This document shows positions 14,427-47,491 of a DNA stretch of 64,000 bases, piece after piece; within the stretch, counting starts at the first letter, position 1, and the number at the start of each line of letters is the position of its first letter. The notes beneath the pieces were generated by a model. The model was not told the origin of the DNA and made no database searches. It worked only from the letters and a program-made list of their open reading frames with translations. Both the position numbers and the translations under genes were made by a program. The DNA is from Novipirellula galeiformis (GTDB lineage Bacteria; Planctomycetota; Planctomycetia; Pirellulales; Pirellulaceae): assembly GCF_007860095.1 (NCBI RefSeq), contig NZ_SJPT01000003.1, positions 62,001 through 126,000 on the forward strand. The letters are read 5' to 3'.

Positions 14427-14533
14427 CATCTTGATGCAGCCGAAACACGCCAGAAAATCCTATCCCGACGCGTCAGCGAGGGGCCGCACCAAGATCGATT
14501 CCCTCTCGCATACGTATTCGGTTCTGAAAAATC
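14427..14533 (-). repeat. Dispersed palindromic repeat, copy A (degraded)
   Basis: Read on the minus strand it aligns along its length with copies B, C and E: a left arm with GCGAGAGGGAATC, a loop close to that of copy C (GATCTTGGT), a right arm CCCTCGCTGACGCGTCGGG, then a tail starting GATTTTCTGG. It has more mismatches than the others. It is intergenic. Confidence 0.6.
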
Positions 14534-14637
14534 GATGCGAGATCGAGGGGGCTCGTCGATTTTTGACAACGTGCGTAGACTTAAATGAATTCGGTCACTG
14601 ACCATTTCCATTCTCGACTCGCCACTACCAGAGCACT

Positions 14638-17256: not shown

Positions 17257-17286
17257 AAGCCAACGTTTTGAAAGCCAACGTTTTGA
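17257..17286. repeat. Two perfect 15-bp tandem copies upstream of the histidine kinase
   Basis: AAGCCAACGTTTTGA is present twice in a row, 28 bp upstream of the kinase start codon and next to dispersed repeat copy B. Confidence 0.85.
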
Positions 17287-17297
17287 AGTCAGCGAGA

Positions 17298-17417
17298 TTT
17301 TCATAACCCGACGCGTTAGCGAAGGACGATCGCACTTGATTCGGTGCCTCGTTAACGCTTCGGATTATGATTTGCTGGTAAAAACTGCAATAGCGCAACT
17401 TCAAAACGAACGCGTCG
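17298..17417 (+). repeat. Dispersed palindromic repeat, copy B
   Basis: Left arm TCATAACCCGACGCGTTAGC (17301-17320), a variable loop, right arm CTCGTTAACGCTTCGGATTA (17349-17368), then the conserved tail TTTGCTGGTAAAAACTGCAA and GCGCAACTTCAAAACG. It aligns along its full length with copies C and E. It lies between the divergent histidine kinase and NPYA membrane protein genes. Confidence 0.85.
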
Positions 17418-17583
17418 GGCAGTGATTTGCTGGGCAAACAGGATTAGCGTCCCTTCAAAAACACAGAGCGAGGTCACCTGTTTCGAGTGAGGACGCACCC
17501 GAGTGTGGCGTTGGGGAATGAATCTCGGTTAGGATGTTATTCTAACGCGAACCTCCGCTGAAAACGATGACGGCAAGACAAAG

Positions 17584-25814: not shown

Positions 25815-25897
25815 GGTGAGACCTTGTTCCGTCGTGTCGAGGGCAGCAGGGAGATAGGTAATGGGTGATGGTTTGGATCGAGCGGGCCGATCCGTTG

Positions 25898-26007
25898 GTT
25901 TTGAAGTTGTGCTGTTACCGTTTTTCCCGGCACATCACTACCCGAAGCATCAGCGAGGGACCAAGTCGAGATCGAGATTCCCTCGCGGACGCTTCGGGTT
26001 GTGAAAA
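25898..26007 (-). repeat. Dispersed palindromic repeat, copy C
   Basis: On the minus strand it runs TTTCACAACCCGAAGCGTCC, GCGAGGGAATCTCGATC, then GGTCCCTCGCTGATGCTTCG and a tail ending GCACAACTTCAAAACC. It aligns with copy E base for base over most of its length without evident gaps. It sits between the DUF1501 start and the end of the PSD1 gene, inside what would otherwise be a two-gene operon. Confidence 0.85.
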
Positions 26008-26045
26008 ACTCGCAACTTCAAAATCCGTTGGCAATGACTCACACG

Positions 26046-28724: not shown

Positions 28725-28856
28725 GATGGATGCCCGAGTGGAAGATAAGAAGAGATCTTCGAAGCCAATGTAATGATAACGCATCACACCGCTGCTTTTC
28801 TTCAAACCCCACTGTGTAGAAAACAGACCGCCCAATCGACCGTTAACCTGGAAATT

Positions 28857-28927
28857 TCATAACCCATCGCGTCAGCGAGGAAATTTCACGCTTGATGGGG
28901 CCCTCGCCGACGCGATTTGACGTTGCG
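28857..28927 (+). repeat. Dispersed palindromic repeat, copy D (core only)
   Basis: Left arm TCATAACCCATCGCGTCAGC with GAGG, right arm CCCTCGCCGACGCGATTTGA. The palindromic core is clear but the tail is not conserved, so orientation is uncertain. It lies upstream of the PSD1 gene. Confidence 0.7.
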
Positions 28928-29031
28928 TTTTTGTATTGAGGGCATTTTGAAAAAGGACGTGGGATGCATGCTGTAGCTGTGTTTACAAGAACGCGGTCCA
29001 CCGCGAACGCGACGGTCACTACATCAAACGA

Positions 29032-47151: not shown

Positions 47152-47247
47152 CGCTGTAACCGGCAAACGGGGAAATCAAAGGGCGTTTGGTTTTAAACGA
47201 ACTTCACGATGGGACTCGCTGCATGCTGCTTTGTGTTAGCGTGGATA

Positions 47248-47368
47248 TTTCATAACCCGGCGTGTAAGTGAGGGAATGTCTGTCGTGTACTCGGTCCCTC
47301 GCTGACGCTTCGGGTTATGATTTGGTGGTGAAAACGGCTGTAACGCAACTTTAAAACGGACGCCTCGG
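47248..47368 (+). repeat. Dispersed palindromic repeat, copy E
   Basis: Left arm TTCATAACCCGGCGTGTAAG with TGAGGGA, right arm GGTCCCTCGCTGACGCTTCG ending GGTTATGA at 47320, then the tail TTTGGTGGTGAAAACGGCTG and AACGCAACTTTAAAACG. Well preserved. It lies between the gene 47492-48826 and the sugar transferase. Confidence 0.87.
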
Positions 47369-47491
47369 GGTATGGTTTTGACTTGCGTACATCACTCAAT
47401 CGCCGTAGCGAGTTGTTGAGTAAGCGGTTGAAATGTTTTGGAGTGTTCGGATGCAATGATCGGCTTAGCGCGAGGCTGCGCCTTGATCGAC

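Follow-up and report, generated by a model that had tools for sequence, protein, structure and literature searches.

A probable non-autonomous DNA transposon of Novipirellula galeiformis that favours a fixed site in the palindrome it carries

What kind of unit is the palindromic repeat that recurs between genes in Novipirellula galeiformis, and how did it get there? A sequence-only reading of the 64-kb stretch analysed here (64,000 nucleotides of contig NZ_SJPT01000003.1; hereafter the window, to whose positions the coordinates of copies A to E refer) had recognised five dispersed copies of about 110 bp, placed all five between genes, described two inverted arms with a conserved tail on one side only, and proposed either a mobile non-coding element such as a MITE or REP-type unit or a structured RNA. 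A covariance model of the repeat, trained on 23 genome copies that included B, C and E but not A and D, returned these same five copies from the window at E<=5, and no sixth.

In an alignment that takes in wider flanks, GTTTTGAAGTTGCG opens the copies and CGCAACTTCAAAAC closes them; a 13-bp terminal inverted repeat (TIR), TTTTGAAGTTGCG ... CGCAACTTCAAAA, marks both ends. Between the TIRs lie, in order, a 6-bp spacer, a 26-bp arm, an 18-bp loop, a second 26-bp arm and a 23-bp spacer; because the spacers are asymmetric, the element has an orientation. The unit is about 125-130 bp long in N. galeiformis, where the spacing is exactly 6/18/23 in 13 of the 34 copies that could be measured, and 164-172 bp long in the MAG JAPLOA from Lac Pavin (G040), where nearly all of the 27 elements measured follow the same plan at about 12/35/47; no transposase gene lies inside. 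The 13-mer with at most one mismatch occurs 113 times in N. galeiformis, against 15 for its reversed control, and the exact TIR occurs 153 times in JAPLOA, against 1 (the first 100 places were itemised in each). Both TIRs are present at 9 or more of 13 positions in 38 of the 86 full-length N. galeiformis copies. The apparently one-sided tail proved to be the right half of this TIR, whose left partner is present before the first arm and is degraded in E (8/13).

Three of the window copies read as full MITEs. Copy E spans 47229..47356 on the forward strand from TIR to TIR (model match 47225-47357, 121 bits) and ends in the right TIR CGCAACTTTAAAA; the unit thus extends some 20 bp further left than the boundary first given to it, and the last 12 bases then assigned to it lie outside the element. 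Its internal palindrome occupies 47250..47320 (arm TCATAACCCGGCGTGTAAGTGAGGGA, loop, arm TCCCTCGCTGACGCTTCGGGTTATGA). Immediately to its right, 47357..47380 (forward strand) agrees at 16 of 20 positions with the half-arm expected there, while the left flank fails (4/16); we read this half-arm as the probable remnant of an older arm split by E, to which the left flank does not match. Copy B (17281..17406, forward strand; model match 17275-17407, 131 bits) has both TIRs and is adjoined at 17407..17462, on the same strand, by a half arm, a spacer and a degraded TIR, with 15 of 20 positions matching the expected half-arm and a left flank of B that fails (3/16); this stretch reads as the putative right half of an older copy beside B. 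Copy C (25899..26023, reverse strand; model match 25898-26029, 137 bits), again with both TIRs, lies between the two TCCGTTGG octamers of its target duplication, at 25891..25898 and 26024..26031, that are identical at 8 of 8 positions. Copy A (14428..14551, reverse strand, 39.8 bits) is full-length and degraded, and copy D (28832..28954, forward strand) is a degraded copy with a recognisable core and no clear TIRs, the weakest of the five (28.3 bits, E 1.7e-4).

Against a mechanical list of open reading frames of at least 100 aa, the intergenic placement held for A and E, which have zero overlap, and needed qualifying for the others: D overlaps the start of one frame by 4 bases, B overlaps a predicted 114-aa frame and C overlaps two, of 119 and 299 aa. 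The recurrent RSVSEGP-like peptide of the reverse frame was borne out: that frame reads ITRSVSEGPS, a peptide that seems incidental to the arm sequence. TRSVSEGP-like peptides can be read from the arm at window 47250-47318 on the reverse strand. Elsewhere, a long open reading frame at locus L303 (4486-5997) opens with LTRRVSEGS and may be a gene call that runs on through a copy.

The family reaches far beyond these five copies. In the N. galeiformis genome (7.4 Mb, 30 contigs) the model finds at least 140 distinct places at E<=0.1, that is, 149 matches less nine opposite-strand duplicates removed by hand; this is a lower bound, and the true copy number is probably higher, because scoring covered 150 of the 2,574 candidates from the first look. 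BLAST with E as the lone query gave at least 53 matches at E<=0.001, both strands counted, with 40 of 163 candidates scored. The repeat lies outside predicted genes in 91 of 96 copies examined (places from 90 loci, of the 140; genes were predicted by a simple script and copy ends trimmed before overlap was scored). These copies are old, with a mean column identity of 76% among 23 good ones. As an exact pattern, one palindrome arm was found in at least 119 public genome stretches, almost all of which carry the label Planctomycetota, with Rubripirellula obstinata, Neorhodopirellula pilleata and Rhodopirellula sallentina among the matches listed. Within a 25-genome sample, the repeat is present in eight and absent from 17 at E<=1e-5; with both strands counted, the carriers have 134 matches (N. 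galeiformis), 84 (G002), 60 (G013), 45 (G025), 13 (G028), 5 (G008), 3 (G010) and 2 (G001), so that the distribution is patchy even inside the genus. Searches of viral contigs (two patterns), plasmids and phages gave no match to the repeat.

Flanking target duplications, if present, would mark the unit as mobile, and they are found at a length of 8 bp in both genomes. Among the 38 N. galeiformis copies with both TIRs at 9/13 or better, the 8-mers to the left and right agree at 0.461, whereas shuffling the partners gives 0.304 (z 5.7), and the same comparison at lengths 4-7 and 9-12 gives z between -2.3 and 1.6; the duplication is perfect in two of the 38, copy C among them. In JAPLOA, the 8-mers of 28 TIR-bounded elements match at 0.844 against 0.409 (z 8.0), 12 of the 28 perfectly, with no other length above z 1.2.

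The window copies are also missing from related genomes. At the places orthologous to A-E in the syntenic congeners G001 and G002, the model has no match at E<=1 in six stretches, degraded copy A being missing like the rest; the five copies are not confined to places shared with these two congeners. Both congeners have shorter gaps at A, B and D, and G001 also at C; the gap at E is poorly alignable in the congeners, and the C gap of G002 is not cleanly alignable and not shorter. This last gap holds a different, GTAG-type repeat, GTAGCGGAAGTCGTCAAGACTTTCG, in three tandem copies at 45-bp spacing (L224 13601-13715; C13, about 113600-113715), which the window lacks even when up to 3 mismatches are allowed. 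TIRs, 8-bp duplications and copies missing in congeners therefore identify the repeat as a MITE, and its two orientations and extragenic dispersal agree with that choice among the readings first proposed.

Could the hairpin be what matters, as a structured RNA or a transcription terminator maintained by selection, with dispersal secondary? Copies B, C and E do fold better than shuffles (z -6.2, -8.5 and -4.2), although folding is a by-product of any palindrome. Gene context lends this reading something too, convergent pairs being somewhat favoured (17 of 84 flanking pairs, against 29 of 359 random intergenic points). Tandem pairs dominate around the copies and divergent pairs are under-represented (10/84 against 74/359). 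Selected pairing should, however, make the arms of one copy agree more than the arms of different copies, which is observed only slightly: agreement within a copy is 0.799, against 0.785 for shuffled arms (z 3.4, 77 of 96 places), and three of the 26 positions are responsible. The covariance analysis proposed earlier as a check for a conserved hairpin likewise returned weak covariation, with both-side changes in 4 of 436 cells of the 23-copy alignment, a small excess over shuffles. Together with the lack of any Rfam match in the window and the copies missing at orthologous places in two congeners, this makes a selected RNA or terminator very unlikely.

A second alternative takes the unit for a REPIN that depends on a RAYT tyrosine transposase for its movement, its TIRs being merely longer REP arms. 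In the MAG JANQLU (G041) the core indeed occurs as an inverted pair of arms without TIRs, in 22 of 22 scored doublets, and no target duplication was found at these bare palindromes (23 doublets chosen by another criterion; the highest z in 99 offset-length trials was 2.0), which look like REPINs. Doublets without TIRs also make up 20 of 68 in N. galeiformis, where decay may be the explanation. Y1_Tnp genes, moreover, are present in all eight carrier genomes of the 25-genome sample, against nine of the 17 non-carriers. The TIR-bounded unit, in contrast, has 8-bp duplications in two genomes; RAYT-class enzymes are not known to generate target duplications, and the duplication therefore disfavours a RAYT as the mover. 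Direct reading of the alignments shows no GTAG or CGTC tag at the element ends. Nor does the palindrome bracket any of 34 Y1 transposase loci, a subset of the known Y1 genes (four from N. galeiformis and 30 from relatives, 19 genomes in all, viewed up to 1.5 kb per side); L342 and L361 each have one palindrome arm within the stretch, that in L361 with a TIR-like match, and three N. galeiformis Y1 genes have other flanking repeats. We consider this account improbable, and the idea of a REP-associated tyrosine transposase as mover is not supported; of the suggested REP-type unit, the part that survives concerns the core, which occurs in other genomes as a REPIN-like inverted pair without TIRs, and not the TIR-bounded unit.

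Some of the loci viewed carry repeats of their own. Two N. galeiformis Y1 genes (L042 777-1995 and L043 1158-1941) are each bracketed by their own inverted repeats, of 24 bp (GGGGTCAGGCTAGGTTTTCGGTTT) and of 35 bp with 89% complementarity, which fit the 'TIRYT' type as PMC3733652 outlines it. A JANQLU Y1 gene (L349 1301-2306) is bracketed by inverted pairs of GAAAAGGGGTCGGGAGTCTTTTC and looks like a typical REP/RAYT unit, and a further repeated palindrome, GGCCGGTGGGAACCGGCCCTAC, is often close to the bare palindromes in JANQLU loci such as L106, L141 and L192.

If the unit is a MITE, its flanks should tell where it lands. For JAPLOA, we rejoined the flanks with one duplication removed and scored them against the 26-bp arm at a threshold of >=17/26: 21 of 28 matched the arm, against 2 of 1,400 shuffles, with no arm target seen for the other seven. 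The break falls at the identical base in every one of the 21, and the duplicated 8-mer is NGCGTNAG inside the arm TCATAACCCGNNGCGTNAGCGAGGGA; no duplication accompanies one of these nested elements (L156 5621). Because most JAPLOA loci were fetched via the palindrome, nested copies may be over-represented; among the elements fetched by TIR rather than by palindrome, five of seven have the arm as target. In a wider view of 19 of the 21 (L156 5621 and L319 577 left out), 13 targets are two-armed palindromes without a TIR nearby and one is a single arm; the remaining five have a TIR-like sequence close by, exact in L156, L174 and L181, and are read as probable insertions into another MITE. Because the target is a palindrome arm and the element holds two such arms, it carries its own landing site.

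In N. galeiformis the same signature is weaker. Tested on the 51 of 86 full-length copies with TIRs at 8/13 or better, 19 flank pairs score >=19/36 on the two half-arms, against 0 of 1,530 shuffles; taken by side, four copies match both half-arms and 20 match one (shuffles, 0 and 7 of 1,530). The evidence here is mostly one-sided, because 20 of the 24 signature copies match one side only, and adjacency or decay could also yield such a signature. Within the window, the right-side half-arms of B and E would fit a nesting model and their left sides do not, while copy C, the cleanest, runs counter to it, having inserted cleanly at a non-arm site. Breakage of the palindrome at a fixed position is hence clear in JAPLOA and weaker in N. 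galeiformis, and falls short of 100%, unlike that of the insertion sequences (IS) covered in PMC1525189. A preference of this kind might reflect survival only, insertions into old repeats being harmless and hence retained, and the position of the copies outside genes would suit this; selection for harmless sites alone, we infer, would not break all 21 JAPLOA arms at one base position, and we think such an origin highly unlikely.

We therefore favour, with a probability of about 0.8, a non-autonomous DNA transposon (MITE) that prefers a fixed site in the palindrome arm that it also carries and is served in trans by a DDE-type transposase. That such an enzyme, encoded elsewhere, is the mover is inferred: the class assignment rests on the duplication, as the regions examined yielded no autonomous element. 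There was none with these TIRs among inverted TIR pairs at spacings of 0.3-4.5 kb across 1.6 Mb of loci, none beside 14 N. galeiformis TIR places and none within about 5 kb beside 20 JAPLOA TIRs (one stretch covering 0.9 kb). Pfam searches of 18 open reading frames between ten long TIR pairs gave no transposase; the matches were to DUF1501, PIG-L, PP2C, acetyltransferase, ECF sigma factor, ceramidase, DUF308, AP endonuclease fold, MatE, ClpX, DnaX, metallophosphatase and FtsW/RodA, with weak SQHop and GvpG matches and three frames without a match. One candidate autonomous element, a 2.46-kb TIR pair with a perfect duplication in L156, is better read as separate nested MITEs around an FtsW/RodA gene.

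By the proposed mechanism, a DDE-type transposase from elsewhere would act in trans on the TIRs and make an 8-bp staggered cut inside an arm at NGCGTNAG, so that each insertion would split one arm and deliver two. With one arm broken and two brought each time, the supply of targets would grow with copy number and landing sites would never be exhausted; copies would come to nest in copies, and insertion, confined to intergenic DNA, would do little harm.

The palindrome itself may have a separate history. Since it occurs in JANQLU without TIRs and without duplication, it is an independent repeat, one that serves as a target and that at least one MITE family, perhaps two, acquired as cargo. In JANQLU the palindrome is also enclosed by another TIR, TAGGATTTTGCAT, in four pairs, two of which share an end (L125 2178-2338, L138 5497-5657, and L142 6290-6489 and 6331-6489); three of the four have a 4-bp duplication, and the site matches the arm in two (19 and 21 of 26), few cases that serve as a lead only. 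More tentatively, and at somewhat less than even odds, the arm may be a landing platform common to at least two unrelated Pirellulales MITE families (TTTTGAAGTTGCG with 8 bp, TAGGATTTTGCAT with 4 bp), each carrying the palindrome as cargo, which would make them self-provisioning transposons.

How does the element compare with known systems? Short, TIR-bounded, gene-free units with many intergenic, hairpin-forming copies are familiar from ERIC and Correia elements. The prokaryotic MITEs CIR and QMITE2 share these properties as described in PMC10969869, an account that does not include this TIR, an 8-bp duplication or a self-target. The Rickettsia palindromic elements of the same source are similar in size and likewise have a reading frame that yields a recurrent peptide, but are reported there inside genes, unlike the N. 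galeiformis copies. As far as PMC3733652 describes them, REPINs and GTAG REPs resemble the bare core, an inverted pair of arms of about 30 bp, and differ from the present unit in their GTAG/CGTC tag and RAYT gene, the unit having TIRs and target duplications and bracketing no RAYT gene examined; the same source credits Rhodopirellula baltica with several REP families and with many genes for tyrosine transposases that have repeats on their flanks.

The closest parallel in landing behaviour is provided by REP-targeting IS (ISPsy8, ISPpu9/10, ISRm19/22 and ISPa11), which insert at a fixed position of a repeated extragenic palindrome, with duplications, where stated, of none, 2, 3 or 6 bp (Tobes and Pareja 2006, PMC1525189). 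Here too a fixed palindrome position is recovered by joining two fragments; unlike these IS as presented there, our unit is gene-free (125-172 bp), has no transposase of its own, makes an 8-bp duplication and holds the target palindrome inside. What is new, set beside that account, is a gene-free element containing its own target, fixed-base homing on palindromes being already known for IS. Among the papers listed in literature searches, none describes this element as far as its title and the opening of its abstract tell.

For the Pirellulales, a MITE that favours its own palindrome offers a simple, testable account of how a repeat reaches more than 100 intergenic copies and builds modular nested arrays, and supplies a family of markers with which insertion history in the order can be traced; it may also explain the recurrent RSVSEGP-like peptide in planctomycete gene calls. 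If the arm is indeed a platform shared by self-provisioning transposons, each insertion would use one landing site and provide two, and the family would grow without exhausting its targets while staying in harmless DNA.
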